From contig NZ_JAPVBG010000002.1 in assembly GCF_026967805.1 (NCBI RefSeq), forward strand, positions 1 to 64,000: DNA of 64,000 bases, in the 5' to 3' direction. The position numbers and the translations under genes are program-made. Position 1 is the stretch's first letter. Each line of letters starts with the position of its first letter. The DNA is from Blastococcus sp. VKM Ac-2987 (GTDB lineage: Bacteria; Actinomycetota; Actinomycetes; Mycobacteriales; Geodermatophilaceae). Below the pieces are notes generated by a model. The model saw only the letters and a program-made list of their open reading frames with translations. It was not told the DNA's origin and made no database searches. Below, piece by piece: positions 6,035-27,412 of the stretch.

Positions 6035-6078
6035 CATCCGGCCAGGTACTTCACCGCTAAGGAAAATCCGTCTAGGGT
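6035..6078 (+). promoter_or_regulatory. Promoter and shared operator of the carbamate kinase gene
   Basis: AGGTACTTCACCGCTAA (6044-6060) is the right half of an imperfect 26-bp dyad that recurs at 20883, 20921 and 22681. Within it TTCACC (6050-6055) sits 17 bp upstream of TAGGGT (6073-6078), a good actinobacterial -35/-10 pair. The -10 ends seven bases before the GTG at 6086, so the transcript may be leaderless. The sequence relations are seen; the binding factor is unknown. Confidence 0.55.
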
Positions 6079-6085
6079 CGGCGGG

Positions 6086-7051
6086 GTGACGTCCAGCCGC
6101 GTGGTCATCGCCCTCGGGGGCAACGCCATGACCGGAGCCGACGGGTCGGCGACGCCGTCGGCCCAGCGCGCCGCGCTCGCCGAGGCCGCCACGCACATCG
6201 CCGACGTCGTCGCCGCGGGCGCCCAGGTGGTGCTCACCCACGGCAACGGCCCCCAGGTGGGCAACCTGCTGGTGAAGAACGAGCTGGCCGCGCACGAGGT
6301 GCCGCCGGTGCCGCTTGACTGGAACGTCGCGCAGACGCAGGCCACCATCGGCTTCACCCTCGCCGACGAGCTGGACGCCGCCCTGCAGGCCCGCGGTCTC
6401 CCCCAGCGCACCGCCGGCCTGATCACCCGGACGCTGGTCGACGCCGACGACCCGCACTTCGCCGAGCCGTCCAAGCCGGTCGGCCGCTACCTCCCGCGCG
6501 AGAAGGCGGACCGGTTCGTCGCGCTCGGCCAGACGTGGGAGGACCGCGGCGAGCGCGGCTGGCGCCGGGTCGTCGCCTCGCCCGAGCCGCAGGCCGTGGT
6601 CGACTCCGCGGCGATCCACGCGCTGGCCGGTGCGGGCTTCGTCGTCGTCTGCGCCGGCGGCGGGGGCATCCCCGTGGTGGACGACGGCCGGGACCACGAC
6701 GGGGTCCGGCACGCGCTGCGCGGCGTCGAGGCCGTCATCGACAAGGACCTCACCGCGGCCATCCTGGCCCGGGACGTCGAGGCCGACACCCTGGTCATCG
6801 CCACCGACGTCCCGAACGTGATGGTCGACTTCGGCACCCCGTCGCAGCGCGCGCTGGGCCGGGTGACCGCCGCCGAGATGCGTGAACTGGCGGCGGCCGG
6901 GCAGTTCGCCCGAGGATCGATGGGCCCCAAGGTCGAGGCGGCGCTGCGATTCCTGTCCCACGGCGGCGCGCGCGCCGTCGTCACCTCGCTCGAGCACATC
7001 GCCGACGCCGTCAGCGATGACTCCGTCGGCACCGTCGTCACCAACTCCTGA
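6086..7051 (+). CDS. arcC: Carbamate kinase
   Basis: A 321-residue amino-acid-kinase-fold enzyme. Family motifs are ALGGNAM at the N-terminus, [30 protein letters not shown] and [10 protein letters not shown]. It catalyses carbamoyl phosphate + ADP = carbamate + ATP in the cytosol. Length is standard. The neighbouring gene 12 bp downstream is a ring-opening amidohydrolase rather than an arginine deiminase pathway gene. With FdrA and DUF1116 proteins at 17.9-20.9 kb, the setting matches the allantoin-pathway use of carbamate kinase (E. coli AllK), in which it recovers ATP from carbamoyl phosphate made by a catabolic transcarbamylase. The GTG start has no clear ribosome-binding site, consistent with a leaderless message. 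Confidence 0.93.
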
Positions 7052-7062: not shown

Positions 7063-8166
7063 ATGCCCGCACCGATCGAGGTCCGCAAGGTCCCGCTGCA
7101 CAACGTCAGCGACGCCTCCGAGCTGGCCAAGCTCATCGACGACGGCGTCATGGACGCCGACCGGGTCATCGCCGTGATCGGCAAGACCGAGGGCAACGGC
7201 GGGATCAACGACTACACCCGGATCATCGCCGACCGCGCCTTCCGCGAGGTGCTGCTGGAGAAGGGCAGCCGGTCGAAGGAAGAGGTCGGCGACATCCCGA
7301 TCGTGTGGTCCGGCGGCACCGACGGCGTCATCAGCCCGCACGCCACCGTCTTCGCGACGCTGCCCGAGGACTCGGTGGAGAAGACCGACGAGCCGCGGCT
7401 GACCGTGGGCTACGCGATGAGCGACGTCCTGCTGCCCGAGGACATCGGCCGCGTGGCGATGGTGGAGAAGGTCGCCGAAGGCGTGAAGAAGGCGATGGCG
7501 GCCGCGGGCATCACCGACCCGGCCGACGTGCACTACGTGCAGACCAAGACGCCGCTGCTGACCATCGACACCATCCGCGACGCCCACGAGCGCGGCGAGA
7601 CGACCATCCTGGAGGAGCCGCACGGCTCCATGGACATCTCGAACGGCACGACGGCGCTGGGCATCGCGGTGGCCCTCGGCGAGATCGAGCTGCCGAAGCA
7701 GGAGCAGATCATGCGCGATCTCTCCCTCTTCAGTGCCGTCGCCTCCTGCTCGTCGGGCGTGGAGCTGGACCGGGCGCAGATCGTCGTCGTCGGCAACGCC
7801 CGCGGGCACGGCGGCGGCTACCGGGTCGGCCACTCGGTGATGAAGGACGCCCTCGACCAGGACGGCATCTGGAACGCCATCCGCGATGCCGGCCTCGAGC
7901 TGCCCGAGCGCCCGCACCACACCGACCTCGGCGACCGGCTGGTCAACGTCTTCCTCAAGTGCGAGGCCTCGCCGGACGGCAAGGTCCGCGGGCGGCGCAA
8001 CGCGATGCTCGACGACTCCGACGTCTCCTGGCACCGCCAGATCAAGGCGACCGTCGGCGGCGTGACGGCGTCGGTGACCGGCGACCCGGCCGTGTTCGTC
8101 TCGGTCGCCGCCGTGCACCAGGGCCCGTCGGGCGGCGGCCCGGTGGCCGCGATCGTCAAGGCGTAG
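7063..8166 (+). CDS. Ring-opening amidohydrolase (barbiturase/cyanuric acid hydrolase family)
   Basis: A 367-residue member of the AtzD/TrzD/barbiturase family, which has three similar sub-domains each giving a Lys-Ser pair. Candidate pairs are [11 protein letters not shown] with [12 protein letters not shown] in the first, QTKTPLLT with [10 protein letters not shown] in the second, and FLKCEAS with [11 protein letters not shown] in the third. The family hydrolyses cyanuric acid or barbituric acid. AAGGGA precedes ATG 7063, and the gene forms an operon with carbamate kinase. The uracil-type permease and molybdo-hydroxylase genes elsewhere in the window favour barbiturate as substrate (uracil oxidation pathway, giving ureidomalonate). 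Sequence alone does not exclude cyanuric acid. Confidence 0.88.
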
Positions 8167-8248: not shown

Positions 8249-9952
8249 TCAGGCCAGGAGGGTGCGGAGGGCCACCGGCGGGAGCGGCGCGGTGAGGTCC
8301 TCCTCCGCGGCGGCCGACCGGCGCGCGCGGGACGGCGCCGGGACCGGCGGCCTGCCGCGCCGGGCCTCAGCCCCGCCCGGCACCACGAACCGGTAGGTGG
8401 CGTCGACGTCGCGGACGGCGAAGACGTCCTCCTCCGCCGCGGCGTGGTGCAGGACGACGGTGTCGAAGCGCTCCGCGACCCGGCGCAGGGACTCGGCGTC
8501 GGAGACGTCGATGACGGTCCCGCCGGGCGCGAACGCGGTGACCGGCACGATCCGGTCGGCGTGCCGGACCAGGAACTCGTCGGCGGCGTCGCCGCGGCCG
8601 GACCGGCCGAGCACCGCCCCGGCGGCGGCCGTGAGCAGCGCGAGGGCGAGCACGGCGAGGACGCCGGCCCGGGCCACACCGACCGGGACGGCCAGGCCCA
8701 GGACGTCGAACGAGCGGGGAGCGACCGCGGTCACCGGCACGGCGGTGTCGGTCGTCGTCGCCAGCACGGCGTCGGGGTCACCGGCCAGGCGCAGCGCGGT
8801 CGGGTCCAGCGTGAAGTCGAGATCGGCCGGCGACGCGGCCTCGAAGGCGGTGCCGCGGGCGGTGCCGGCCAGCGCCACGGTGGGGGTGACGGTCAGCGTC
8901 GCGCTGCTGCCCGGGACCCCGACCTCGGCGTAGTGCCGGCTGAGCACCTCGGCCGCGCGCGCCGCGTCGACGTCCACCGACGCCGTCGCCACCCCGTCGG
9001 TGAAGCCGACGACGGGACCGCTGCCCAGGTAGGCGCTCCAGCCGTCGGCCGCCTGCACCGAGACGTCGAGGCGCAGCGCGCCCCGGACGTCGGCGAGGTC
9101 GGGGCCGCTGACGGTGTCCTCGTAGGAGACGGTCAGACCGGTCGCGAGCCTGGTCCAGACGGTGTCCCCGGTCGCGACGGCGCCCGTGGGGTAGGTGGTG
9201 CCGCGCTCGGCGGTGCCGGCGTAGGAGAAGCGGCCCTGCTGGCTGACCTGCAGGGTGTCCTCGACGGTCTCGGTGGAGGGGACGGCGACCAGGACGGCGG
9301 CGCCCACGGTCGCCAGCAGCGCGACGGCCGCAGCGCCCAGCGCGACCTGGCGGGCGCGGGCCCGGACCAGCATCGGCAGCGAGCCCCCGGAGACCTGCGG
9401 CAGCGACACCGAGGGCACGGAGAAGGCCGGAACCGACAGGGACGGCGCACGCAACGCCGGCAGCCGTCGCCGGAGGGCGCGGGCGCGCGAGCTGCCGCCC
9501 TTCCGGCGGGTGGAGCCCAGGACCAGGGACGCCGCGAGGCCCACGACCGCCAGCACCCACGGGGAGCCGAGGGCCTCGAGCGCCTTGCCGCCCTGCGGGA
9601 TGCGGACGAACAGCCGGCCGAGGACCTCTTCCTGCGTCGGCCGGTCCTCGTCGAGCCAGCTGTTGTTGTCCCCCTGCGTCACGAACCCGTCCGTGTCCGC
9701 GGCGACGATCCGGTGCATGACCACCGCGTCGAGGGACTCGCTGCGGTAGGCGACGACGTCGCCGACCGAGTAGGTGCTCGCCGAGCTCAGGACGGCGAGG
9801 TCGCCGGCGGAGAACTGCGGCTCCATGCTCTGGCCGTAGGTGGTGACGTAGGTCGTGCCACCGCCCAGCGCCAGCGGCCAGAACAGCCACATGGTCGCGA
9901 GCACCAGCGCGACGACGGCGCTGGTGCTTGCGACTCGTGATGCGGCGGTCAT
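8249..9952 (-). CDS. ER-type signal peptidase I fused to DUF5305-like domain
   Basis: A 567-residue membrane protein in two parts. Residues 1-150 are a signal peptidase I of the archaeal/ER (SipW) type: one membrane segment (about 10-30), YGQSMEP with nucleophile Ser42, a His in place of the bacterial Lys (VVMHRIVA, His80), and GDNNSWLDEDRP with acidic residues 95-103. A second membrane segment follows (about 128-145), then a basic Pro/Ser-rich linker. From about 215 a DUF5305-like exported domain runs between two more membrane segments (about 215-235 and 440-460) and a cytoplasmic tail. It is downstream of a TasA-like small exoprotein gene, its likely substrate. Fusion of the two modules in one chain is notable; DUF5305 assignment is by resemblance. 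Confidence 0.8.
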   Translation of the reverse strand: MTAASRVASTSAVVALVLATMWLFWPLALGGGTTYVTTYGQSMEPQFSAGDLAVLSSASTYSVGDVVAYRSESLDAVVMHRIVAADTDGFVTQGDNNSWLDEDRPTQEEVLGRLFVRIPQGGKALEALGSPWVLAVVGLAASLVLGSTRRKGGSSRARALRRRLPALRAPSLSVPAFSVPSVSLPQVSGGSLPMLVRARARQVALGAAAVALLATVGAAVLVAVPSTETVEDTLQVSQQGRFSYAGTAERGTTYPTGAVATGDTVWTRLATGLTVSYEDTVSGPDLADVRGALRLDVSVQAADGWSAYLGSGPVVGFTDGVATASVDVDAARAAEVLSRHYAEVGVPGSSATLTVTPTVALAGTARGTAFEAASPADLDFTLDPTALRLAGDPDAVLATTTDTAVPVTAVAPRSFDVLGLAVPVGVARAGVLAVLALALLTAAAGAVLGRSGRGDAADEFLVRHADRIVPVTAFAPGGTVIDVSDAESLRRVAERFDTVVLHHAAAEEDVFAVRDVDATYRFVVPGGAEARRGRPPVPAPSRARRSAAAEEDLTAPLPPVALRTLLA

Positions 9953-9975
9953 GCGAAGGCACCGATCGGAGGTTC

Positions 9976-10005
9976 GGGCGAGGCGGCCGCGAGGCCGCCT
10001 CGCCC
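9976..10005 (-). terminator. Intra-operon hairpin between exoprotein and signal peptidase genes
   Basis: GGGCGAGGCGGCC and GGCCGCCTCGCCC form a perfect 13-bp stem with loop GCGA. It lies 11 bp after the exoprotein stop and 24 bp before the peptidase start. A leaky terminator here would make the exoprotein more abundant than its peptidase; that role is inferred. Confidence 0.6.
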
Positions 10006-10015
10006 AGGCGGACTG

Positions 10016-10420
10016 CTAGTTCGAGGTGACCGTCAGCGAGGTCTTGTCGAAGGAGGAGATGAGGGGCGGCGTCGTCAGGGTGCAGGTGACGACGTGGTCC
10101 GAGCCGGACAGCGTGTAGCTGCAGGTGTTGGCACCGGAGGCGATCGGCGTCGTGCCGCTGTAGAGCGTCATGCGCGCCGACATGCCCGGCGACGCGACTG
10201 CCTGGTCGACGGTGAAGGCCACCGACTGCAGGCGTCCGCTGTCCGCGGTGGTGGGCGTGTAGGCGATGTTGTTGACGTTCACACCGGTCGCCGTCACCTC
10301 GCCGTAGCCGGCGACGTTGTTGTCGAGGCCGGTGAACGTGTTGCTGGCGGTGAAGGCGGAGGTCGTGGCGGCGACGCCGGCAACCGCGACACCGGCAAGC
10401 AGAACGCGCGACAGGCGCAT
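10016..10420 (-). CDS. TasA/CalY-like secreted protein (SipW-dependent type)
   Basis: A 134-residue small secreted protein. It starts MRLSRVLLAGVAVAGVAATTSAFTA, a signal peptide with a short hydrophobic core and cleavage near TSA-FTA. The mature part begins ASNTFTG and is rich in Thr, Ser, Val and Asn with predicted beta strands, ending SLTVTSN. SipW-dependent proteins (TasA, camelysin) have this build and are cleaved by ER-type signal peptidases, one of which is encoded immediately downstream. Two Cys residues near 100 and 112 could form a disulphide. A role as a surface fibre or matrix protein is inferred from this pairing; no specific homologue is recognised. Confidence 0.65.
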   Translation of the reverse strand: MRLSRVLLAGVAVAGVAATTSAFTASNTFTGLDNNVAGYGEVTATGVNVNNIAYTPTTADSGRLQSVAFTVDQAVASPGMSARMTLYSGTTPIASGANTCSYTLSGSDHVVTCTLTTPPLISSFDKTSLTVTSN

Positions 10421-10746
10421 GGCAGTGGGTCCTGTTCTCTCTCAGTGGCTCAGGCCCGCCGGGATGCTGGTCGCCCGGTCCACGTGCTGGCTGCGCCGAT
10501 TCATTGACGCCCCAGTTCTCGGCACCGGTCCACGCATTCTCAACTCCTGTCCCTGAAATGATCAGGAGTCGCTGAGTCGACAATTCCGGGACGGTCACCG
10601 AATGGTCGGGAATGGTCGCTCCGGTGCCGCAGCGGGGCCCGGTCGGCGCGCCTTCCCGGCCCCTGGAGCGGGCGCCCTACGGTGTTCCGGAACCGCCCTG
10701 CCACGGCAGGGAGCATGGTTCCCAGTGGCTGTGGAAGGGATCGGTC
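10421..10746. other. Divergent intergenic region, no gene seen
   Basis: This 326-bp stretch separates the exoprotein gene (minus) from the chemoreceptor gene (plus). I see a weak inverted repeat ACTCCTG (10543-10549) and CAGGAGT (10563-10569), and the receptor's ribosome-binding site GGAAGGGA just before 10747. An open frame reaches upstream to 10612 but lacks chemoreceptor character. Confidence 0.4.
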
Positions 10747-11997
10747 GTGCGCTCGTCGACGTCGCGAGGCCCGGTCTCGCCCCCGTCCGTGGCGGCGCCG
10801 CCCACCGCCGCGGAACCTCCGGCCCCGCGGCGGACCGTCGAGCGGGACACCAGCATGGAGGCGGCGGCCCAGCAGGCCGGCGTCCTGGCCCAGGCATCGC
10901 GGGAGGTCTCCGACACCTCCGCGGAAGCGGCCGCCTCGCTGGCCGAGCTGCGCGCCGCCATCGGCGACATCTCGAGCAGCACCGGCCGGGCGTCGGCCAT
11001 CGCCGAGGGGGCAGTGGGCGACGCGCGCGCCGTCGACGAGCGGATCGCCGCGCTGCAGACCGCGAGCGCGGCGATCACCGGGTTCGTGCGGTTGATCAGC
11101 GCGATCAGCCAGCAGAGCCGGTTCCTCGCGCTGAACGCCTCCGTCGAGGCGGCACGCGCCGGCGATCTCGGCCGCGGCTTCGCCGTCGTCGCCGACGAGG
11201 TGAAGGAGCTCGCCGACCGCACCGCGCAGGCCGCCCGGGACATCGACGCGCAGATCACGGCGGTGCAGCAGGAGACCCGGCAGGCCGTCGAGGTGGTGCA
11301 GCGGATCACCGGCACGCTCGGCGCGATCACCCAGGCCCAGGACGCCATCGCCGCCGCGGTGGCGCAGCAGCGGGTGGCCACCGACCGGGTCGTGGCGAAC
11401 GTCGACCGCGCCGCCGGCGGTTCCGCACGGATCACCGAGGCGGTGGCCAGGCTGGCCGAGAGCCAGCGGGTCGTCTACGTGCGCCGGGCGCTGGCGGTCG
11501 CCGAGCAGCAGCTGGCCGACCTCGGCGGCGCGCGGCTCGGCGCGGGGCGCAGCACCCTCCCCGTGCGCGACCAGTCCACCGGTGCCACGCACACCGCCCG
11601 GCTGCCCGACCTGCTGATCGGGGAACGGGTGCTGGACCGCAGCGACGACCCGCGCCGCCCGGCCGTCCTCGTCGACGAGGTCGTCCGCCAGGTCGGCGGC
11701 AGCTGCACGGTCTTTCAGCGCCTGGACGACGGCGGCATGGTGCGGGTCGCGACGTCCGTGCTCACCCCGGCCGGGCGGCGGAACGTCGGCACCTGCATCT
11801 CCCGGACCGACGGCGGCGGCAGCCCCAACCCGGTGCTCGCGGCGGTGCTGGCCGGCACCACCTACACCGGGGCGGCGACGGTGGCCGACCGGCCGTACTT
11901 CACCGCCTACACCGGGCTGCACGACGACGCCGGCGCGCTGATCGGCATGCTCTACGTCGGCCTGCCCCTGGACACGATGCCGGGCTCGGGTCGCTGA
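10747..11997 (+). CDS. Soluble methyl-accepting chemotaxis protein with C-terminal sensor
   Basis: A 416-residue protein with a chemoreceptor signalling hairpin about residues 45-275. Its tip ISQQSRFLALNASVEAARAG and the following GRGFAVVADEVKELADRT are near-canonical. The C-terminal 130 residues resemble a Cache-type sensor (TVFQRLDDGGMVRVATSV, then YTGAATVADRPYFTAYTG and GALIGMLYVGLPL). No membrane segment is present, so this is a cytoplasmic receptor with the sensor after the signalling domain, reversed from the usual order. GTG 10747 has a good ribosome-binding site six bases upstream. No che genes are in the window, so its output partners are elsewhere. Confidence 0.82.
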   Translation: MRSSTSRGPVSPPSVAAPPTAAEPPAPRRTVERDTSMEAAAQQAGVLAQASREVSDTSAEAAASLAELRAAIGDISSSTGRASAIAEGAVGDARAVDERIAALQTASAAITGFVRLISAISQQSRFLALNASVEAARAGDLGRGFAVVADEVKELADRTAQAARDIDAQITAVQQETRQAVEVVQRITGTLGAITQAQDAIAAAVAQQRVATDRVVANVDRAAGGSARITEAVARLAESQRVVYVRRALAVAEQQLADLGGARLGAGRSTLPVRDQSTGATHTARLPDLLIGERVLDRSDDPRRPAVLVDEVVRQVGGSCTVFQRLDDGGMVRVATSVLTPAGRRNVGTCISRTDGGGSPNPVLAAVLAGTTYTGAATVADRPYFTAYTGLHDDAGALIGMLYVGLPLDTMPGSGR

Positions 11998-12090
11998 CGG
12001 GCCGCTCTCGCCCGGAACCGGGGTCCCGCGGCCGGGGTCCTCTAGGTTGAGGGGCGAGGCCGCCGCACCGCTGGGCCGGACGAGGGGGAT

Positions 12091-13182: not shown

Positions 13183-13263
13183 CCGGCGCCGTCCCGGTCA
13201 GCAGGTGCTGCGGCGGGCGGGATACCGCAGGATGTGTCCACCGCCCTCACGTCTGGAGTCTCG

Positions 13264-14238: not shown

Positions 14239-14292
14239 GCGAGCGGCGACCAGCCGGCGGGGGCGGCCGTGCCGTTCCCCGACGGTCAGGCA

Positions 14293-14326
14293 CCGCGGGG
14301 GACGACGTCCACCGCCGTCCCCGCGG
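14293..14326. terminator. Hairpin between converging lipoprotein and phosphatase genes
   Basis: CCGCGGGGGACG pairs with CGTCCCCGCGG (14316-14326) as an 11-bp stem with one bulged G. It lies between the stops at 14238 (plus) and 14330 (minus). Confidence 0.55.
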
Positions 14327-14329
14327 GCG

Positions 14330-16090: not shown

Positions 16091-16257
16091 GCGCCACGCC
16101 GCCCTGCCGGCGCCCGGTCATGCCGGGTGCATCGTCCCATCCGGGCCGCCCACAGGTGAATCGGGCACTACCTATGGGGGCGCACAGGCCTCCCCGGGAA
16201 CGCCCGCTCCGCCCGGGCGACCGGCCACCCGCCCGGGCGGCGTCCACTGCTGCGCGA

Positions 16258-16572: not shown

Positions 16573-16573
16573 C

Positions 16574-17770: not shown

Positions 17771-17812
17771 GCCGCGGCGGCGCCGGAGGGTGTGCATCGC
17801 GGCGCGCGAGAT

Positions 17813-17857
17813 CTGCGCAGTGGCCCCCATCGAAGGCCTGATGGGGGCACTGCGCAG
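17813..17857. terminator. Strong bidirectional hairpin between PilZ and DUF1116 genes
   Basis: Arms 17813-17831 and 17840-17857 pair over 18 bp with one bulged G and an eight-base loop. The converging stops are at 17770 and 17870. Confidence 0.75.
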
Positions 17858-17869: not shown

Positions 17870-19291
17870 TCAGGCGGTGCGGGCCTCCTCGGCGAGCGCG
17901 GCGAGCGCCTGCTCGAAGCACTGCTGCGGCGGCTGCACCAGCCCGGCACCGACCTGACCGGTGCCGGCGACCCGCCCGGCCATACCGGTGTTGATCTGCG
18001 GCAGCCAGCCGGTCCGGGCCACCTTCAGCACGTCGATGCCGGTCGGCGAGCCGCGGAAGCCCATGATCGGGATCGCCATGGCCGGGTTCTCGGTAAGCGT
18101 CAGCTGGTACATCCGCTCCGTCGTCGCCAGGGCGTCGGGGACGGTGCCGCCGACGAACCGGACGATCGCCGGCGCGGCGGCCATGGCGAAGCCGCCGATG
18201 CCGTAGGTCTCCATGATCGCGGAGTCGCCGATGTCGGGGTTGGCGTCGTCGGGGCCGTAGTCGCCCAGGAACAGCCCGACCGGGGTGTTCGCCGGGCCGG
18301 TGAACCAGCGGTCGCCGGTGCCGGCGGTCTGGATGCCGAACTCCGTGCCGTTGCGCGACATCACGGTGAGCATCGTCGAGCCGGGGACGTCGCGGGCGGC
18401 GTCGAGCGCGAGCTTCGCCGTCGGCATGCCGAGGTTGAGGAAGAAGTGCTCGTTGCCGCCGATGAACTTCAGCACGGCGGCGATGTCCGACGACGGCACG
18501 CCCTCCACCGCGACGATCGACGGCGACAGCTCGCGCAGCGCCATCAGGGAGCCCGCGCGGTTGCGGTTGTGCCCCTCGTCGCCCATCTGGAGCATCTGCG
18601 CCAGCACGGCCTTCACGTCGAGCGGGTCGTTGCCGGCGTCGATCGAGCCGCGCACGGCCTTGGAGAGCACCGGGCCGAGCACGTCGCGCATCCAGCGCAG
18701 CCGGACCTGCACCTCCTCGTTGAAGGCGCCCATCCGCAGCACCTTGCCGAGGCCCTCGTTGAGGTTGCAGAACGCCTGCCCGCCGGTGACCGGGTCCTCC
18801 AGGCACCACATCCACATCGAGGGGCTGGTGACGCCGGCCATCGGGCCGACCGTGCGGTGGTGGTGGCAGGGGTCGAGGGTGACCGCGCCGGTGGAGAGCA
18901 GGATCTCCGCCTCCTCGACGTCGGCCGCCCAGCCCTCGAACAGGCAGGCGCCGACGAGCGCGCCCCGCATCGGGCCGGAGGCGGCCTCCCAGGTCAGCGG
19001 GGGTCCCGAGTGCAGCAACGTGCGGTCGGCCAGGCCGATGACCTCGCGGGCCGGACGGACGTCGACCAGCACCGACCCGGCGGCGAGCAGCCGCTCGACG
19101 GCGGTGCGGTTGGCCGCGGCGCGGCGGGAGTCCAGGGCGAGCGCGGCGAGGTCGGCCGGGTCGCCGAAGCCCGGCGGCCGCCAGTCGACGTCGGCCACCT
19201 CGGCGCCCTGGGCGCGCAGCGCGTCGGAGAAGACGTCGACGCCGGCCGCCACGATGGACGGCGGACCGGAGAGCAGGTTCCCGAGGCTCAT
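17870..19291 (-). CDS. DUF1116 protein, AllG/YlbE-like transcarbamylase subunit
   Basis: A 473-residue DUF1116 protein. Recognisable segments are the N-terminal VFSDALRAQGAEVADVDWRPP, HHHRTVGPMAGVTSPSMWMW in the middle, GDEGHNRN near 240, and MPIMGFRGSPTGID-like text near the C-terminus. In E. coli the DUF1116 protein AllG (YlbE), with AllF (FdrA) and AllH, forms oxamate carbamoyltransferase, which converts oxalurate and phosphate to oxamate and carbamoyl phosphate. Here the gene lies after fdrA on the same strand; ATG 19291 overlaps by ATGA the stop of a duplicated fdrA 3' end. No AllH (DUF2877) gene is visible. A carbamoyltransferase role is therefore inferred from FdrA and carbamate kinase, with an unknown acyl-urea substrate. 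Confidence 0.85.
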   Translation of the reverse strand: MSLGNLLSGPPSIVAAGVDVFSDALRAQGAEVADVDWRPPGFGDPADLAALALDSRRAAANRTAVERLLAAGSVLVDVRPAREVIGLADRTLLHSGPPLTWEAASGPMRGALVGACLFEGWAADVEEAEILLSTGAVTLDPCHHHRTVGPMAGVTSPSMWMWCLEDPVTGGQAFCNLNEGLGKVLRMGAFNEEVQVRLRWMRDVLGPVLSKAVRGSIDAGNDPLDVKAVLAQMLQMGDEGHNRNRAGSLMALRELSPSIVAVEGVPSSDIAAVLKFIGGNEHFFLNLGMPTAKLALDAARDVPGSTMLTVMSRNGTEFGIQTAGTGDRWFTGPANTPVGLFLGDYGPDDANPDIGDSAIMETYGIGGFAMAAAPAIVRFVGGTVPDALATTERMYQLTLTENPAMAIPIMGFRGSPTGIDVLKVARTGWLPQINTGMAGRVAGTGQVGAGLVQPPQQCFEQALAALAEEARTA

Positions 19292-19352: not shown

Positions 19353-20858
19353 TCACGAGGCCGCTCCGAGCAGACGGAGGGCGTACCGCGTTGCGGCGGC
19401 GTTGCTGGCAAAGACACTTGCGCCGGCGGCGGCGAGGGCGTCGGCCTGGGCCGACCAGCCCTGCGGATCGCCCTCGGTGCCGATCAGTGCGACGACGACC
19501 GGCAGCGCCCGCTGCTCGCGGGCGGCCCGCAGCGCGGGGACCAGTGCCCCGGCCGGATCGGGGTCGGCCCCGTGACCGAGGACGACATCCAGGAGCAGGA
19601 CGGCGGGCTCGTCGGAAGCGGCCAGCTCGGCGATCGCCTCCAGCCGCAGGGTCGGGTCGATCATCGGGTGCGCGCGGCCCACGGTGAGGGCGTCGTCGCC
19701 GAAGTCGACGACGAGGTGGCCCGAGGCGGACAGGTCCGTCCCGAGGTCGAGCCCGGGCTCCAGCGGGGTGTTCGAGCGGATGCCGCCCAGCGCCGGGGAG
19801 GCCAGCAGCATCGCCTCGTCGGCGAGCGTGCCGCCGGAGTAGAGGCCCTTGAGCGCCGCGCCGGGGACGGCGGCCTCGGCGGGCCCGGGGCGCGCGGGCC
19901 ACACCGGGACGTCGAGCCCCATGTCGGTCAGCAGCGCCTCGACGGCGGCGGTGAGGTCGGGCGTCTCGGCCGAGAGCGCGGCGCTGCGGACCGGCACGGA
20001 GAGACCGTCGGCGAACTCCGTCACCGCGGCGGCCACCGACGGAGCCGGGGGCTTGGACACCACCAGCACCCGCTCGGTGGCCGGGTCGGCGTCCAGCGCG
20101 GCGAGCGCGTCGAGGGTGGCCAGGCCCCCGACGGCCTCCGACAGGTCGCGGCCGCCGACGCCGAGCACGTGCGAGACGCCGACGCCGGCCATGTCGAGCA
20201 GGCAGGACACCTGCTGGGCGCCGGTGCCCGACGCCGCGACCAGCCCGACCGGGCCGGGGCGGACGACGTTGGCGAACCCGAGGGCGACGCCGGAGACGAT
20301 CGCGGTGCCGCAGTCGGGGCCCATCACCAGCACGCCGGCGTCGTGCGCGGCGCGCTTGAGCGCGACCTCGTGCTCGACCGGGACGCCGTCGGAGAAGACC
20401 AGCACGCTGCGCCCGGCGGCGATCGCGTCGGCCGCCTCGGCGACGGCGTACTGACCGGGGACGCTCACGATGGCCAGGGCCGGGGCCTCGGGCGCCAGCT
20501 CGTCCAGGCCCGCGCCGACCGTGCGGTGCGCGACGGCGGTGGCGGTGCCGGTGGAGCGCTCCCGCTCGGCCAGCGCGGCGTCGACGTCGGCGAGCGCATC
20601 GGCCAGCGCGGCGTCGTCGTCGGCGCGGACGGCGATCAGCAGCTGCTCGGGTGAGGCGTCGCCGTCGGGGGCCAGCCCCATGTTCGCGGCGAGCTCGAGG
20701 TTCAGCGGGGTCGCCATGGCCACGAGGACGGCCGAGACGCCGTCGCGGGCGCCGATGCGGCGGCTGACCTGCATCAGCTTGACGGAGTCGGCGTAGACCC
20801 CGGACCGAAGCTGCACCGAGACCGTCGCGTCTCCCCCGGCGGGGGCTGAGGAGCTCAT
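19353..20858 (-). CDS. fdrA: FdrA-family protein, AllF-like transcarbamylase subunit
   Basis: A 501-residue FdrA protein with a CoA-ligase-like fold. The N-terminus SVQLRSGVYADSVKLMQVSR is characteristic, followed by a Rossmann part (VGLVAASGTGAQQVSCLLD and VMGPDCGTAI) and the C-terminal LYSGGTLADEAMLLA and VLLLDVVLGHGADPDP. In E. coli FdrA is AllF, part of oxamate carbamoyltransferase. E. coli FdrA is somewhat longer. The gene precedes DUF1116 and is divergent from the uracil-type permease, sharing a 180-bp control region with two copies of the regulon dyad. With the carbamate kinase at 6.1 kb this suggests phosphorolysis of an N-carbamoyl acid to carbamoyl phosphate. Confidence 0.88.
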   Translation of the reverse strand: MSSSAPAGGDATVSVQLRSGVYADSVKLMQVSRRIGARDGVSAVLVAMATPLNLELAANMGLAPDGDASPEQLLIAVRADDDAALADALADVDAALAERERSTGTATAVAHRTVGAGLDELAPEAPALAIVSVPGQYAVAEAADAIAAGRSVLVFSDGVPVEHEVALKRAAHDAGVLVMGPDCGTAIVSGVALGFANVVRPGPVGLVAASGTGAQQVSCLLDMAGVGVSHVLGVGGRDLSEAVGGLATLDALAALDADPATERVLVVSKPPAPSVAAAVTEFADGLSVPVRSAALSAETPDLTAAVEALLTDMGLDVPVWPARPGPAEAAVPGAALKGLYSGGTLADEAMLLASPALGGIRSNTPLEPGLDLGTDLSASGHLVVDFGDDALTVGRAHPMIDPTLRLEAIAELAASDEPAVLLLDVVLGHGADPDPAGALVPALRAAREQRALPVVVALIGTEGDPQGWSAQADALAAAGASVFASNAAATRYALRLLGAAS

Positions 20859-20864
20859 CCCCGG

Positions 20865-20946: not shown

Positions 20947-21040
20947 GTGCGAGCCGTGCCACATTGACGCCTCTCGCTGCGCCGACACCACCGTCGACCA
21001 GCACCGGCACGAGTCGCAAGTGCACGTCGAGGAGGCACTC

Positions 21041-22516
21041 ATGGCGTTCGGGTGGAAGCTCTACGGGGACGGCAAGACTCCCCCGCTCGGAGAGGCCGTC
21101 GCCCCCGACGAGCGCCTCTCCTGGCCACGCACGGCCGGCATCGGCGCGCAGCACGTCGTCGCCATGTTCGGGGCGACCTTCGTCTTCCCGATCGTCATGG
21201 GGCTGGACCCCAACCTGGCGATCATGATGAGCGGCATCGCCACGATCATCTTCCTGCTGATCGTGAAGAACCAGGTACCGAGCTACCTGGGCACCAGCGC
21301 CGCCTTCGTCGGCGGCGTTGCCGCGATCCGCACCAACGGCGGTGACTCCAGCGACGTCGTGGGCGCCCTGCTGGTCGCCGGTGTCGTGCTCGCCCTCGTC
21401 GGTCTGCTGATCCACTTCGCGGGCCTGGGCATGATCAACAGGGTGCTGCCGCCGGCGGTGACCGGCGCGGTGGTAATGCTCATCGGGTTCAACCTCGCCC
21501 CGGTGGCGGCCGGCATCTACTGGCCCCAGGACCAGTGGGTCGCGCTGGCCACGATGACCTTCGTCATCGTCGCCTCGCTGGCGCTGCGCGGTTTCATCGC
21601 CCGCATCTCGATCCTGCTGGGGCTGATCTTCGGCTACCTGCTGTCGATCCTCCTGGACGCGACGGCCGGCCAGATCACCTCGGTCGACGGCACCGGCGCG
21701 GTGTCCACCCGCGACCGGATCAACTTCGACTCCGTCGCCGACGCGAACTGGTTCGGCCTGCCGGACTTCACCGCGCCGTCGTTCTCGCTGAACTTCAGCC
21801 TCCTGGTCATCCCCGCCGTCATCGCCCTGGTCGCGGAGAACGCCGGCCACGTCAAGGCGGTCGCGGAGATGACCAAGCGCGACCTCGACCCGGTCATGGG
21901 CCGCGCGGTCTTCGCCGACGGGTTCGCCACCGTCGTCGCCACCTCGGTCGGCGGCTCCCCCACCACCACCTACGCCGAGAACATCGGCGTCATGGCCGCC
22001 ACCCGCGTCTACTCGACGGCGGCCTACTACATCGCCGCGCTGGTGGCGATCCTGCTCGGCCTCATCCCCAAGTTCGGCGCCCTGATCAACATCGTCCCGG
22101 GTGGCGTGCTCGGCGGCATCACCGTCGTCCTCTACGGGATGATCGGCCTGCTCGGCGCCAAGATCTGGAAGGAGAACCGGGTCGACTTCGCCAACCCGAT
22201 CAACCTGGTGCCGCTGGCCGCCGGGATCATCATCGGCATCGGCAACGTCACCCTGGTCTTCTCCGACGACTTCGTGCTCAACGGCATCGCGCTGGGCTCG
22301 ATCGTCGCGGTGGTGGCCTGGCACCTGGCCCGCTGGCTGGCCCCGGCCGACATGAAGGACGCACTGCTCCGCGAGGGCGTCCATCCCGCGGCCGGCAGCA
22401 CGCTCGGCCACGCCCCCGGCGAGGAGGTGTCCCCCGACCCGTCGTCGGTGGACGAGGTCGGCCGCCCCGGCGTGCTCGGCGGCCGCACGCCGGGCAGGGA
22501 CAACCACGACCGGTAA
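21041..22516 (+). CDS. NCS2 nucleobase permease, uracil permease-like
   Basis: A 491-residue membrane protein of the nucleobase:cation symporter-2 family with about 12-14 membrane segments. The substrate loop VGGSPTTTYAENIGVMAATR is the uracil-permease (UraA/RutG) version rather than the xanthine/urate version (QNxGxxxxT). VAENAGHVKAV in the preceding helix also fits uracil transporters. A hydrophilic 45-residue tail follows the last membrane segment. ATG 21041 is preferred over GTG 21020 because GAGGAGG lies five bases upstream of it. Divergent from fdrA and upstream of the molybdo-hydroxylase operon, it probably imports the pathway substrate, most simply uracil or a related pyrimidine. Confidence 0.9.
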   Translation: MAFGWKLYGDGKTPPLGEAVAPDERLSWPRTAGIGAQHVVAMFGATFVFPIVMGLDPNLAIMMSGIATIIFLLIVKNQVPSYLGTSAAFVGGVAAIRTNGGDSSDVVGALLVAGVVLALVGLLIHFAGLGMINRVLPPAVTGAVVMLIGFNLAPVAAGIYWPQDQWVALATMTFVIVASLALRGFIARISILLGLIFGYLLSILLDATAGQITSVDGTGAVSTRDRINFDSVADANWFGLPDFTAPSFSLNFSLLVIPAVIALVAENAGHVKAVAEMTKRDLDPVMGRAVFADGFATVVATSVGGSPTTTYAENIGVMAATRVYSTAAYYIAALVAILLGLIPKFGALINIVPGGVLGGITVVLYGMIGLLGAKIWKENRVDFANPINLVPLAAGIIIGIGNVTLVFSDDFVLNGIALGSIVAVVAWHLARWLAPADMKDALLREGVHPAAGSTLGHAPGEEVSPDPSSVDEVGRPGVLGGRTPGRDNHDR

Positions 22517-22763: not shown

Positions 22764-23639
22764 GTGAAGCCAGCTCCTTTCAGCTACGCCGACCCAGGCT
22801 CCCTGGACGAGGCCCTCGAGGTCCTCGCCGAGGAGGGCGCCAAGGTGCTCGCCGGGGGCCAGTCGCTCCTGCCGCTGCTCTCGATGCGCCTCGCGGCGCC
22901 GGCCACGCTCGTGGACATCAACCGGGTCCCGGGCCTGGACGCGGTCGACGTCACCGACGACGGCGTGACCGTCGGCGCCCTGGTCCGCCACCACGCCCTC
23001 CTGCACCACGACGCCGCCGCCCGCGTCCAGCCGCTGCTGGCCCGCGCGACGGCGAACGTCGCGCATCCGGCCATCCGCAACCGGGGCACCACCGTCGGCT
23101 CGATCGCGCACGCCGACCCGTCGGGGGAGATGACGTCGGTGCTCGCGCTGACCGACGGCTCGGTCACCGTGGCGGGCGCTGCCGGCACCGACACCGTGGG
23201 CTGGCGCGACTTCTTCGTCGGGCCGCTGGAGACGTCGATCGCCGGGCCCGCCGTCGTCACCTCCGCCTTCTTCCCCGCGCTGCCGCCGCGCTCGGGGACG
23301 GCCTTCGCCGAGATCGCCCGCCGCAAGGGCGACTACGCCGTCTGCGGTGCGGGCGTCGTCGTCACGCTGGACGACGACCGGCGCGTGACCTCCGCCCGCG
23401 CCTCCTACGTCTCGGTGGGCATCGTCCCCGAGGTGCACGACCTGACGGAGGCCGTCGCCGGGGCGCCGGTGGAGAAGGCCGACTGGGCCGCCGCCGGCGC
23501 GCTGGCGCGGACGCTGGTCGAGCCGGACACCGACATCCACGCCAGCGCCGACTACCGGCGTCTCCTGGTGGGCGTGCTGACCGAGAGAACTCTGGCCGAG
23601 GCTGCCGCCGAGGCCTCCGCGAGAGCGACGCGCGAGTGA
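22764..23639 (+). CDS. FAD-binding subunit of a xanthine dehydrogenase-family molybdo-hydroxylase (CoxM-like)
   Basis: A 291-residue medium subunit of the CoxM/HcrB family, carrying electrons from the iron-sulphur subunit to an acceptor through FAD. FAD motifs are LAGGQSLLPLLSMRLA and RNRGTTVGSIAHADPSGE, with the family's RRKGDYAVCGAG towards the C-terminus. It starts at GTG 22764 behind GGAGGTG. The operon order is M-S-L-G. Length matches the family. It needs the small and large subunits encoded downstream. Confidence 0.92.
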   Translation: MKPAPFSYADPGSLDEALEVLAEEGAKVLAGGQSLLPLLSMRLAAPATLVDINRVPGLDAVDVTDDGVTVGALVRHHALLHHDAAARVQPLLARATANVAHPAIRNRGTTVGSIAHADPSGEMTSVLALTDGSVTVAGAAGTDTVGWRDFFVGPLETSIAGPAVVTSAFFPALPPRSGTAFAEIARRKGDYAVCGAGVVVTLDDDRRVTSARASYVSVGIVPEVHDLTEAVAGAPVEKADWAAAGALARTLVEPDTDIHASADYRRLLVGVLTERTLAEAAAEASARATRE

Positions 23640-23707
23640 GCATCGCAGCGAGCGCCGGCGAGCGAGGAGCGGAACGAGTGCGGAGCAAACACCATCGGGA
23701 GGGCCGC

Positions 23708-24223
23708 ATGACCAGAGTCGACACGGAGCGCACGATCACCGTCACGGTGAACGGTGTTCCACGTGAAGCCACCGTGCCGGTGCGCCGGCTGCTGTCCGAC
23801 GCGCTGCGCCACGACCTCGGGCTCACCGGCACCCACGTGGGCTGCGAGCACGGGGTGTGCGGGGCCTGCACGGTGATCGTCGACGGCGCCCCGGTGCGCT
23901 CGTGCCTGATGCTCGCCGTCCAGGTGGACGGGTCGGAGGTGCGCACCGTCGAGGGCCTGGCGCACGACGACCACCAGGGCGGGCAGGTGATGCACCCGGT
24001 GCAGGAGGCGTTCCGCGAGTGCCACGCGCTGCAGTGCGGGTTCTGCACGCCGGGCTTCCTGATGACGATCGCCGCCGGGCTCGAGGGCCGGGACAACTCG
24101 GTGGAGATCTCCGAGGAGGAGGTCGACGAGATGGTCGGCGGCAACCTGTGCCGGTGCACCGGCTACGCCAACATCAAGAAGGCCGTGCACCACGCGGCCG
24201 CCGCGATGAAGGACGACGCCTGA
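23708..24223 (+). CDS. [2Fe-2S] subunit of a molybdo-hydroxylase (CoxS-like)
   Basis: A 171-residue small subunit with two [2Fe-2S] clusters. The plant-ferredoxin-type site is CEHGVCGACTV with a later Cys in PVRSCLM, and the C-terminal site is CGFCTPGF with NLCRCTGY. It passes electrons from the molybdenum centre to FAD. The 68 bp before ATG 23708 contain a ribosome-binding site (GGGAGGGCCGC). Its stop overlaps by ATGA a 31-codon frame that leads into the large-subunit gene. Confidence 0.94.
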   Translation: MTRVDTERTITVTVNGVPREATVPVRRLLSDALRHDLGLTGTHVGCEHGVCGACTVIVDGAPVRSCLMLAVQVDGSEVRTVEGLAHDDHQGGQVMHPVQEAFRECHALQCGFCTPGFLMTIAAGLEGRDNSVEISEEEVDEMVGGNLCRCTGYANIKKAVHHAAAAMKDDA

Positions 24224-24318
24224 TGACTCCGGCCGCTCCAGGCATAGGAAGCTATGCCTACGTCCTGAGCCCGGAAACGCAGGCAAAGGTTCCTATGCCT
24301 GAGGGGGGCGAGCGGTGA
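24223..24318 (+). other. 31-codon bridging frame containing alternative hairpins
   Basis: This frame (MTPAAPGIGSYAYVLSPE...) overlaps coxS by ATGA and coxL by GTGA. It contains three copies of an 8-mer: AGGCATAG (24240-24247), CTATGCCT (24252-24259) and CTATGCCT (24293-24300). The first two form an 8-bp hairpin with loop GAAG; the first and third extend to a perfect 11-bp repeat, AGGCATAGGAA with TTCCTATGCCT. The rare ATA codon and lower GC suggest a palindromic insertion rather than a selected peptide. Confidence 0.5.
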
Positions 24319-26738
24319 CGACGAAGCTGTTCGGGGAGCCGGTCCGCCGGCGCGAGGACGCCCGGCTGATCACCGGCAAGGGCCGCTACCTCGACGACAT
24401 CGGCCACGACGCCCTGGCCGCCGCGTTCGTGCGCAGCCCGCACGCGCACGCCCGGATCACCGGCATCGACGTCGACGCCGCCCTCGAGGTCGAGGGCCTG
24501 GTCGCCCTCTACACCTACGAGGACCTCGCCGGCCCGATGGCCGAGCCGCTGCCGGTGCTCATCCCGCACCCGCAGCTGCACGCCCCGCGCACCGGCTACC
24601 CGCTGGCCAACGGCGAGGTGAACCACGTCGGCGAGCCCGTCGTCATGGTGGTGGCCACCGACCGGTACGTGGCCGAGGACGTCTGCGACCGCATCGTGGT
24701 GAGCTACGAGGAGCTGCCCGTCGTCGTCGGCGTGGACGCCGCCCGCGCGGCGCGCTCGTGCGTGCACGAGGAGATCCCCGACAACGTCGCGGCCCGGCAC
24801 CACCAGGAGACCGGCGACGTCGAGCCGGTGCTGGCCGACTCCCCCCGCACGCTGAGCTTCACGCAGTACATCGAGCGCAGCGCGTGCATGCCCATGGAGG
24901 GCAAGGGCGTGCACGCGAAGTGGGACGCCGACGACGACTCGCTGCGGGTCTACACCAGCACCCAGGCGTCGACGTCGGTGCGCGCGGCGATCGCGGCGAA
25001 GCTGCAGCTCTCGCTGGACAAGGTCGAGGTGATCGCCCCCGACGTCGGCGGCGGCTTCGGCGTGAAGATCATGCACCCGTGGCCCGAGGAGCTGCTGATC
25101 CCGATGGCGGCGATCGCGCTGGGCCAGGAGGTGAAGTGGTCGGAGGACCGCCGCGAGCACTTCATCGGCTCGGCGCACGAGCGCCAGCAGCGGCAGGAGA
25201 TCACCGTCGGGTACGACGACGACGGCCGGATCACCGCGCTCGACGTGCACATCTGGCACGACAACGGCGCCTACACGCCCTACGGGATCATCGTGCCGAT
25301 CGTGACGGCGACCCAACTGGTCGGGCCGTACGCGCTCCCGGTGTACCGGGTGATCGTCGAGTCGGTCTACACGAACACCGTCATCGTGACGCCGTACCGC
25401 GGCGCCGGGCGGCCGCAGGGCTGCTACGCGATGGAGCGGACGATGGACCGCATCGCCGACGAGCTGGGCCTGGACCGCGCCGTTGTCCGCGAGCGGAACC
25501 TGATCCAGCCCGATCAGTTCCCCTACGACCACCAGCTGACGTTCCAGGACGGCCGGCCGGTCATCTACGACTCGGGTGACTACCCGGGGCTGCTGGACAA
25601 GCTGCGGACGCTGGTCGGCTGGTCGGAGGCCGAGCAGCTGCGGGCCGACGCCGGCGCGCGCGGCAAGCTGCTCGGCGTCGGGATGGCCATGTACGTGGAG
25701 GGCACCGGGCCCGGGCCGTACGAGGGCGGGCACGTGCAGGTGCTCGGCAGCGGCAAGGTGCTGGTCTCGACCGGGCTGACGTCGCAGGGGCAGGGGCACG
25801 AGACGGCGTTCGCGCAGATCGTCGCGTCGGAGCTCGGGGTGCCGATCGAGGACATCGAGGTGACCACCGGCGACACCCGGCGCTTCGGGTACGCCGTCGG
25901 CACGTTCGCCTCCCGGGCCGCGGTGATGAGCGGCAACGCGATCGCGCTGGCCGCCCGCGGCGTGAAGGAGAAGGCGCTGCGGATCGCCGCGGAGGTGCTG
26001 GAGGCCTCGCCGGAGGACCTGGAGATCGACGAGGGCGTCGTGCAGGTGAAGGGCGTGCCGGGCACGTCGATCCCGCTGCGCACGGTGGCGGTGCTGTCCA
26101 ACCCGCTGCGGTACGCCTTCGACGAGGCGGCCCGCCAGGCGACGCAGTTCGCCGGTCCGGGCGACGACTCGAAGCCCCCGGTGGCGCCGGGCGACGCGCC
26201 GGGCCTGGAGCACCGCGACTACTACTCACCGATCCGGTCGACGTTCGCCTCGGGTGCCCACGCGGCGATCGTGGAGATCGACCCGGCGACGTGGGAGATC
26301 GACGTCGTCAAGTACGCCGTGGTGCACGACTGCGGGAACGTGGTCAACCCGATGATCGTCGAGGGTCAGGTGCACGGCGGCGTCGCGCAGGGCGTGGGTG
26401 GTGCGCTGTACGAGCGGATGGCCTACGACGCCGACGGGCAGCTGCAGAACGCCTCGTTCATGGACTTCCTGATGCCGTACGCGTCGGAGGTCCCGGACAT
26501 CGACATCGACCACCAGCAGACGCCGTCGCCGCTGAACCCGCTGGGCATCAAGGGCGCCGGTGAGGCCGGCGTCATCCCGGGGACGGCGGCGATCGCCTCG
26601 GCGATCGAGGACGCGGTGGGACGGCGGATCGCCTCGATGCCGATCTCGCCCACGGAGCTGTACGACCTGGTTCGGAACGACTCGTCGGAGATGACCGCCG
26701 CGGCGCAGCGCCGCGCGGGGACTGGAGTGATGGCGTGA
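24315..26738 (+). CDS. Molybdopterin-binding large subunit of a xanthine dehydrogenase-family hydroxylase (CoxL-like)
   Basis: An 807-residue molybdenum subunit. VGGGFGVK (the substrate-side Gln/Phe region), the active-site loop TPYRGAGRPQGCYAMER, the GQGHETAFAQIV cofactor motif and the catalytic Glu in KGAGEAGVIP are all present. The loop reads AGR, not the CSFR of true form I CO dehydrogenase, so CO oxidation is unlikely. The enzyme should hydroxylate a heterocycle or similar carbon. The permease, FdrA, DUF1116, carbamate kinase and barbiturase-like genes suggest a pyrimidine such as uracil, giving barbiturate. The start is GTG 24315, overlapping the bridging frame's stop. Confidence 0.92.
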   Translation: MTTKLFGEPVRRREDARLITGKGRYLDDIGHDALAAAFVRSPHAHARITGIDVDAALEVEGLVALYTYEDLAGPMAEPLPVLIPHPQLHAPRTGYPLANGEVNHVGEPVVMVVATDRYVAEDVCDRIVVSYEELPVVVGVDAARAARSCVHEEIPDNVAARHHQETGDVEPVLADSPRTLSFTQYIERSACMPMEGKGVHAKWDADDDSLRVYTSTQASTSVRAAIAAKLQLSLDKVEVIAPDVGGGFGVKIMHPWPEELLIPMAAIALGQEVKWSEDRREHFIGSAHERQQRQEITVGYDDDGRITALDVHIWHDNGAYTPYGIIVPIVTATQLVGPYALPVYRVIVESVYTNTVIVTPYRGAGRPQGCYAMERTMDRIADELGLDRAVVRERNLIQPDQFPYDHQLTFQDGRPVIYDSGDYPGLLDKLRTLVGWSEAEQLRADAGARGKLLGVGMAMYVEGTGPGPYEGGHVQVLGSGKVLVSTGLTSQGQGHETAFAQIVASELGVPIEDIEVTTGDTRRFGYAVGTFASRAAVMSGNAIALAARGVKEKALRIAAEVLEASPEDLEIDEGVVQVKGVPGTSIPLRTVAVLSNPLRYAFDEAARQATQFAGPGDDSKPPVAPGDAPGLEHRDYYSPIRSTFASGAHAAIVEIDPATWEIDVVKYAVVHDCGNVVNPMIVEGQVHGGVAQGVGGALYERMAYDADGQLQNASFMDFLMPYASEVPDIDIDHQQTPSPLNPLGIKGAGEAGVIPGTAAIASAIEDAVGRRIASMPISPTELYDLVRNDSSEMTAAAQRRAGTGVMA

Positions 26739-27412
26739 AGCTCGACGGCTCTGCGGTGCTGCACGGCGACCCCGAGAAGGTCTGGGCCGTGATCACCGAC
26801 CCGGCCGTGCTGGCCCGGACGATCCCCGGCTGCGAGACGCTCGAGCAGGTCGGCGACGACGAGTACAAGATGAACGTCTCCGTCGGCGTCGGAGCCATCA
26901 AGGGCACGTACGCGGGCGAGGTGAAGCTGGCCGACAAGCAGCACCCGACGTCGTACGTCATGCACGCCGCGGGCGCGGGTGCGCCGGGCAACGCGCGGGC
27001 CCAGGTGACGATCACGCTCGCCCCGGCCGACGAGGGCACGACCAACCTGACCTACTCCGCCGACGCCGTCATCGGCGGGCCGGTCGCGGGCGTGGGCCAG
27101 CGGATGATCACCGGCGTCGCCAAGCGGATGGCCGGGCAGTTCTTCAAGGCGATCGACGACGAGCTGACCGGCAAGGCCGTCCCTGCCGCCGCCGTCCCGT
27201 CGGCCGCCGCGGTGAGCTCGACGGCGGCGGAGGACGTCTCCGGCAAGCACGCCGCTCCGGCCGCCGAGGCCGCGCCGGCGGTGTTCGCCGGCAGGGCCGG
27301 CGCTGCCGCGGGAACGTCCGGCGACGCGCAGACCCTGGCGCTCGGCGCCGTCGGCGGTGCCGTGCTGACGCTGATCGGCATCCTGGTCGGCTACCGCCTC
27401 GGCCGCCGATGA
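26735..27412 (+). CDS. CoxG-family SRPBCC protein with C-terminal membrane anchor
   Basis: A 225-residue protein. Residues 1-145 are a CoxG/SRPBCC domain (KLDGSAVLHGDPEKVWAVIT, then TIPGCETLEQVGDDEY and FFKAIDDEL). An Ala-rich linker leads to one C-terminal membrane helix, GAVGGAVLTLIGILVGYRLG. CoxG proteins recruit Mo-hydroxylases to the membrane or help deliver substrate or electrons to the quinone pool. GTG 26735 overlaps the coxL stop (GTGA), so it is translated with the enzyme. It is the last gene of the operon. Confidence 0.9.
   Translation: MKLDGSAVLHGDPEKVWAVITDPAVLARTIPGCETLEQVGDDEYKMNVSVGVGAIKGTYAGEVKLADKQHPTSYVMHAAGAGAPGNARAQVTITLAPADEGTTNLTYSADAVIGGPVAGVGQRMITGVAKRMAGQFFKAIDDELTGKAVPAAAVPSAAAVSSTAAEDVSGKHAAPAAEAAPAVFAGRAGAAAGTSGDAQTLALGAVGGAVLTLIGILVGYRLGRR

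Follow-up and report, generated by a model that had tools for sequence, protein, structure and literature searches.

A candidate phosphorolytic route of oxidative pyrimidine degradation in Blastococcus and related actinobacteria

The stretch of DNA analysed here (the window, 64,000 nucleotides from Blastococcus sp. VKM Ac-2987) carries genes for a uracil-type NCS2 permease, a CoxMSLG-like molybdo-hydroxylase, a barbiturase, the transcarbamylase subunits FdrA (AllF) and AllG (DUF1116), and a carbamate kinase (CK) (Table 1). The initial annotation had named this gene set, and profile searches confirm every one of the genes. The barbiturase is the only member of the AtzD/barbiturase family that we found in the window genome, and it is 98% identical to the closest Blastococcus record. 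CK passes the cut-off of the NCBIfam carbamate kinase model NF009007 (300 bits, cut-off 266) and does not reach that of TIGR00746 arcC (339 bits, cut-off 358). It is 41% identical to E. coli AllK, and the window CK as a query has a single match in the genome.

Table 1. Genes of the predicted pyrimidine pathway in the window
Gene product	Position	Strand	Profile matches and remarks
Carbamate kinase (CK, ArcC/AllK type)	6086..7051	+	AA_kinase 106 bits; 11 bases upstream of barbiturase
Barbiturase (3-oxo-3-ureidopropanoate-forming), AtzD family	7063..8166	+	PF09663 486.5 bits
AllG (DUF1116), predicted ureidomalonate transcarbamylase subunit	17870..19291	-	PF06545 299 bits; 49% to E. coli AllG
FdrA (AllF) subunit	19353..20858	-	PF00549/PF02629 (CoA-ligase domain); 38% to E. 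coli FdrA
NCS2 uracil-type permease	21020..22516	+	PF00860; RutG/UraA-like, under the curated cut-offs of both models
coxM-like FAD subunit, molybdo-hydroxylase	22764..23639	+	PF00941, PF03450
coxS-like [2Fe-2S] subunit	23678..24223	+	PF00111, PF01799
coxL-like molybdopterin subunit, predicted uracil 6-hydroxylase	24315..26738	+	PF02738, PF20256, PF01315
coxG-like protein	26735..27412	+	PF06240 98 bits

In the oxidative pyrimidine pathway described so far, uracil is converted via barbiturate and ureidomalonate to malonate and urea (Soong et al. 2001, 2002, as cited in excerpts of PMC3758960). We think it likely that the genes of Table 1 encode a phosphorolytic form of this pathway, in which the substrates of the hydroxylase, of AllFGH and of the amidases found in relatives are ones that we infer. 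The NCS2 permease would import uracil, and the CoxMSLG-type molybdo-hydroxylase would oxidise it at C6 to barbiturate. Barbiturase would then open the ring to give ureidomalonate (3-oxo-3-ureidopropanoate). AllF(FdrA), AllG and AllH would use phosphate to split ureidomalonate into malonamate and carbamoyl phosphate, which CK, together with ADP, would turn into ATP, CO2 and ammonia. Most relatives that we read have an amidase in the cluster that probably converts malonamate to malonate, and in some of them a CoA-transferase and a carboxyltransferase would feed the malonate onward. The reactions catalysed by barbiturase, AllFGH and CK are established from the work of others. Ureidomalonate resembles oxalurate in being an N-carbamoyl amide of a short oxo-acid and differs from it by one CH2. 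Hence, the chemistry asked of AllFGH would presumably be unchanged. The step from ureidomalonate via FdrA/DUF1116 to CK had been proposed in the initial annotation. Co-occurrence and linkage of the genes, the joint absence of AllG and CK, the clades formed by AllG and FdrA and the lack of AllD all speak for it; what the hydroxylase and AllFGH act on is still a prediction.

To describe how the genes are distributed, we scored the presence of the AtzD/barbiturase family, AllG and AllH by profile in 394 genomes of the window's class. The family is present in 82 of these, AllG in 88 and AllH in 80. The family and AllG occur together in 75 genomes, and all three in 73 (for the family and AllG, Fisher p = 3e-58, where related genomes are not independent). 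Five of the 82 genomes have the lowest best scores among the full-length matches (291–439 bits) and were set outside the barbiturase branch; three of them were checked and are 37–42% identical to the barbiturases. None of the five has AllG. For 30 of the 82 the locus was compared directly, each having a gene 73–80% identical to the window's, and the rest were assigned to the inside or the outside of the branch by bit score. The initial annotation had suggested searching for the gene set across actinobacteria, and within the barbiturase branch this search finds AllG in 75 of 77 genomes and AllH in 73 of 77 (Fisher p 3e-64, again with related genomes not independent, and with G023 and G209 counted on partial or split matches). 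The two branch genomes without AllG are G014, a 72% complete metagenome-assembled genome (MAG), and G206. Barbiturase and AllG share a contig in 48 of the 75 genomes, and in 40 of these 48 they are within 60 kb of each other.

AllG also occurs without any barbiturase-family gene, in 13 genomes. Sets of FdrA, AllG and CK without such a gene are found in five genomes (L216, L217, L223, L225, L228). It is possible that these are oxalurate-type or other ureide transcarbamylases.

Of the 40 linked regions, defined by a distance of at most 60 kb between barbiturase and AllG, we examined 19, the window included, spread over families and genera. Gene counts come from a tblastn pass, from which the window's carboxyltransferase match (34%, the enzyme of a polyketide cluster) was excluded. 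Permease, coxM, coxS, coxL, coxG, barbiturase, FdrA and AllG are present in all 19 clusters, CK in 17, HyuA and HyuB in 17, and PucR in 16. Sixteen clusters have an amidase, which is either nitrilase-like (11) or of the amidase-signature type (5). The two types are unrelated and never occur in the same cluster, and in 14 of the 16 the amidase gene lies between coxG and HyuA. Interchangeable unrelated amidases would fit the hydrolysis of a simple amide, for example malonamate. A family III CoA-transferase is encoded in 9 of the 19 clusters and an AccDA-like carboxyltransferase in 7, and both would fit activation and decarboxylation of malonate. Three clusters contain an AMP-ligase, which we considered as a malonyl-CoA synthetase; this role is unsupported, as the best PDB match is FadD5 (315 bits, vs 208 for malonyl-CoA synthetase). 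The HyuA and HyuB genes of the window genome are found on the coxG strand, about 43 kb further on (G000:C5:70749-74689, equivalent to L236:8750-12690), and are 71% and 78% identical to the cluster copies.

In the relatives, one strand usually carries AllG-FdrA-AllH in this order, and the opposite strand carries PucR, the permease and coxMSLG. No AllH is visible in the window, as the initial annotation had noted. The genome as a whole does encode AllH, on another contig (G000:C8:41604-42596; 95 bits in the whole-genome search, 92 bits as a protein), and all three AllFGH subunits are therefore encoded in the window genome. This AllH is 33% identical to E. coli AllH over 129 residues and lies divergent from a PucR-type regulator. 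The idea that a missing AllH would be a further novelty is thereby refuted, all the more since AllH is present in almost the whole barbiturase branch. In 17 of the 19 clusters AllH is part of the linked set, and only in the window genus is it unlinked; two of the linked copies (G048 and G158) were missed by tblastn and recovered near AllG by profile alone. The congener G390 shows the same separation of AllH and PucR as the window genome. Given this and the usual gene order, the AllH/PucR pair seems to have split away from the cluster in the window genus. Two frames of the window (17006-17830 and 16574-16912) were considered as a local AllH substitute and rejected; Pfam gives no match for them, even with an E value of 10.

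In 75 of 80 named loci, a CK gene precedes barbiturase on the same strand, within 1.5 kb. AllG status is available for 78 of the 80, from the flank for 28 and from whole genomes for 50, with L163 and L184 outside the count. Both CK and AllG are present in 69 of the 78, neither in four, CK only in four (all MAGs) and AllG only in one. In the last case (L188, Arachnia) CK is encoded elsewhere, 3.7 kb from a second AllG copy. Whole-genome searches found neither AllG nor CK in four isolates with a close barbiturase: Rhodococcus erythropolis (reportedly the ureidomalonase organism of Soong et al.), Rhodococcus sp. IEGM 1409, Rhodococcoides fascians and Modestobacter muralis. All four have urease. 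Hydrolysis of ureidomalonate to urea predicts this, urease without AllG and CK. In three Rhodococcus-type loci (L171, L173, L174) an amidase-signature protein directly follows barbiturase. This protein of Rhodococcus and Rhodococcoides is a candidate for the ureidomalonase of Soong et al. An amidase of this type is found at the same place in one of 75 CK-type loci (L177), where some loci end soon after barbiturase.

It could be argued that hydrolysis is the rule in the AllFGH-type clusters as well. An unrecognised hydrolase, either the cluster amidase or HyuAB, would then convert ureidomalonate to malonate and urea, and AllFGH and CK would act on a thymine- or methyl-pyrimidine-derived ureide or something similar. 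A ureidomalonase that yields malonate and urea was described earlier (excerpts of PMC3758960), and amidases and HyuAB do belong to the clusters. HyuA also occurs in AllG-negative Rhodococcus genomes, and urease is present in 27 of 69 AllG-positive genomes. Against this stand the position of CK next to barbiturase in almost all named loci and the cluster amidase, whose origin from one or the other of two unrelated families is easier to reconcile with a simple amide as substrate than with a dedicated ureidohydrolase. Furthermore, urease was not found in the window genome or in its congener, and hence urea would be a dead end there. We therefore regard the hydrolytic alternative as unlikely.

Improbable to a similar degree is a purine or allantoin route, in which AllFGH and CK would act on oxalurate. 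In its favour, the sole characterised AllFGH, from E. coli, uses oxalurate (excerpts of PMC11326118), PucR-family regulators adjoin the genes, and the class contains FdrA-AllG-CK sets without a barbiturase-family gene (G003, G159, G116, G167, G288). In E. coli, oxalurate arises by oxidation of ureidoglycolate (excerpts of PMC12535856). The enzyme of this oxalurate-making step is AllD, ureidoglycolate dehydrogenase, and our search for it was negative at its cut-off: no AllD scores above the cut-off in any of 80 AllG-positive genomes, 75 of which have the barbiturase family. Weak AllD homologues exist in 20 of the 80 genomes (121–244 bits, cut-off 496); the window genome is one of the 20 and has three such homologues. 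Likewise, none of E. coli allB, allC, allD and allE gives the best match anywhere in the 19 clusters (tblastn, E 1e-10, 40% of length). A supply of oxalurate by AllD is a feature of the oxamic transcarbamylase (OXTCase) AllFGH. Since no AllD above the cut-off was found, we describe the system as working like OXTCase and do not file it as one.

The phylogeny of the transcarbamylase also speaks against the purine route. AllG tracks barbiturase, and the barbiturase-linked AllG form one clade of their own (support 100/97), with a single barbiturase-free row inside it (G108, an 80% complete MAG). The FdrA tree shows the same grouping (97/98), with long branches and a lower resolution. These trees cover AllG from 17 and FdrA from 14 of the 19 clusters, and G116 and G220, two of 15 other AllG loci, are absent from the AllG tree. 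The AllG row G068b falls outside the clade; it belongs to a barbiturase-containing genome, of which it is the second AllG copy. In addition, a purine route leaves the joint lack of CK and AllG in Rhodococcus-type genomes unexplained.

The first two steps of the proposed phosphorolytic pathway depend on the permease and the molybdo-hydroxylase. Among PDB proteins the permease matches the uracil permease at 218 bits and the uric acid-xanthine permease at 61 bits. The UraA residues E241, H245 and E290, which we take to bind uracil, are conserved in the window permease. CoxL of form I CO dehydrogenases has as its signature a CSFR loop with the active-site Cys. The window CoxL does not have this Cys loop: in its loop, PYRGAGR, the residues GAGR stand where the CO dehydrogenases 1ffu and 8uem have CSFR. 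Its closest PDB relative is quinoline 2-oxidoreductase (1t3q, 475 bits), ahead of the CO dehydrogenases (394 bits or less). Quinoline 2-oxidoreductase hydroxylates a carbon beside the ring nitrogen. The coxG-like protein probably has a role in assembly or membrane anchoring.

On the other hand, the NCBIfam exception model CODH_aero_grp5 matches the window CoxL at 1463 bits, above its cut-off, and none of the PDB relatives listed is named as a pyrimidine hydroxylase. The enzyme could be a CO dehydrogenase or an oxidiser of another N-heterocycle, with barbiturate coming from outside or from another enzyme. We think that this is improbable, and a CO dehydrogenase in particular is unlikely because of the active-site loop. 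The higher score of quinoline 2-oxidoreductase points in the same direction. So does the conserved clustering of coxMSLG and the uracil-type permease with barbiturase, which is found in all 19 regions and in R. erythropolis. Judging from the missing CSFR loop and the relatives in barbiturase clusters, CODH_aero_grp5 is probably a misnomer for the protein at 24315-26738.

By sequence similarity, the ring-opening enzyme of the window belongs to the barbiturase branch of the AtzD family and not to the cyanuric acid branch. Among PDB proteins it scores highest with barbiturase 5hwe (638 bits), and the best cyanuric acid hydrolase reaches 339 bits. The barbiturases of the 18 other clusters are 73–96% identical to it. 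An Arg present in the two cyanuric acid hydrolases shown is replaced by Asn both in the window protein and in 5hwe. Excerpts of PMC4051656 report a glutamine in barbiturases at Arg188 in the numbering of that paper. A cyanuric acid hydrolase feeding a route via biuret, with AllFGH cleaving the biuret to urea and carbamoyl phosphate, is highly implausible on the PDB similarity and the Arg replacement, even though the window protein also passes the cut-off of NCBIfam NF052395 cyanuric acid amidohydrolase (471 bits vs 360) and allFGHK adjoining biuret genes has been reported in nitrifiers (excerpts of PMC12625717); an isochorismatase-type biuret hydrolase is not among the cluster families identified, with no search aimed at one.

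Several observations weigh against the phosphorolytic pathway itself. The one characterised AllFGH acts, as said, on oxalurate, and the FdrA of the window scores 397 bits on the curated FdrA model, under the cut-off of 433. Two of the 19 clusters (G241 and G354) are without CK, and G241 has a 47% identical CK elsewhere. Conversely, the four MAGs mentioned above keep CK without detected AllG, and G206 encodes a 78% identical barbiturase and a 45% identical CK, yet no AllG or AllH. In the window genus AllH is not linked to the cluster, and there is no clustered amidase either. The closest amidase-signature homologue (C5:282537-283922, 58%) is located about 275 kb from barbiturase; the nitrilase-like type was not sought there. 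HyuAB falls past the end of the window in the window genome. As a possible ATP user to which we can assign no step, HyuAB may also mean that there is no net gain of ATP. A net ATP gain from the pathway is thus not established.

The distribution of urease belongs to these points too. Urease is present in the 27 of 69 AllG-positive barbiturase genomes already mentioned (29 if two weak fragments are included; six of the 75 are outside the count). It is more frequent in AllG-negative family genomes (9 of 11, p = 0.01). However, five of the 11 lie outside the barbiturase branch, and within the branch the contrast is 5 of 6 versus 27 of 69 with p = 0.08. Hence, the enrichment of urease in AllG-negative genomes is a tendency only. 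A comparable pattern has been described for enterobacteria, where the urease-negative species named have AllFGH and the urease-positive Klebsiella pneumoniae is without it (Kim and Kim, excerpts of PMC11326118).

How does the proposed pathway relate to known systems? At the Rhodococcus loci, which would represent the classic oxidative pathway, there are likewise genes for barbiturase, a permease, HyuA, a CoxMSLG-like hydroxylase and a CoA-transferase/carboxyltransferase. Both types of locus share HyuAB: it occurs in 17 of the 19 AllFGH-type clusters, and R. erythropolis has a 70% identical HyuA. In contrast to the clusters described here, three Rhodococcus-type genomes were found without AllG or CK and have an amidase after barbiturase; AllFGH and CK take that place here. 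With the E. coli system of AllFGH and AllK (Kim and Kim 2024, excerpts of PMC11326118) the window genome shares the three subunits and a CK. It differs in that AllD is not found above the cut-off, AllG and FdrA group in clades of their own, AllH is unlinked in the window genus, and the genes are linked to barbiturase rather than to allantoin genes, with a predicted substrate one CH2 longer. In Rubrobacter xylanophilus, a ureidoglycine transcarbamylase likewise splits a ureide with phosphate and has a CK gene adjoining. According to excerpts of PMC4016543, that enzyme is a pseudo-ATCase with allantoate as substrate, in a purine pathway. Quinoline 2-oxidoreductase is the closest solved relative of CoxL, although it has another substrate and the match is at 475 bits only. 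In the open-licence text of PMC we found no paper that joins barbiturase with fdrA, or any two of barbiturase, ureidomalonate and carbamoyl phosphate, or at least three of uracil, barbiturate, CO dehydrogenase and CoxL.

The pathway region is not a single operon. Its two halves are separated by genes without an evident link (8249-17830: signal-peptidase-like, chemoreceptor, SpoIIE, TctC, PilZ). Within this part, 10612-17770 holds a Cache-domain chemoreceptor-like protein, a TctC binding protein, two SpoIIE phosphatases and a PilZ protein. No regulatory RNA was found in the window at the Rfam gathering thresholds. Further downstream (42821-55795) there is a type II polyketide-like cluster with an AccDA fusion, a biotin carboxylase, two ketosynthase-type proteins, an ABM/FAD monooxygenase and a P450. 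Its carboxylase genes suggest that this cluster carries its own malonyl-CoA supply. Of the 34 loci L135-L168 (Geodermatophilaceae and kin), 32 are on contigs that end less than 10 kb upstream of barbiturase, as does the contig of the window genome.

Putting these parts together, we favour, with some reservation, the following overall picture. A urea-free phosphorolytic uracil pathway would be widespread in actinobacteria, and the AllFGH branch found there would be a ureidomalonate (malonamate) transcarbamylase with its own CK. The "CO dehydrogenase group 5" proteins would be uracil 6-hydroxylases, and Rhodococcus would have the hydrolytic, urea-making form, in which an amidase replaces AllFGH and CK. 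Oxidative pyrimidine degradation has been considered rare, and malonate and urea are given as its end products (excerpts of PMC3758960). If our picture is true, then the phosphorolytic form would be the usual one in the class, given the presence of AllG in nearly every barbiturase-branch genome, and the Rhodococcus form the exception. It would also mean a second substrate for AllFGH, a transcarbamylase that was assigned to genes in 2024 and described as being without similarity to known transcarbamylases (excerpts of PMC11326118). Finally, it would correct the family name CODH_aero_grp5, which makes such bacteria look like CO oxidisers.

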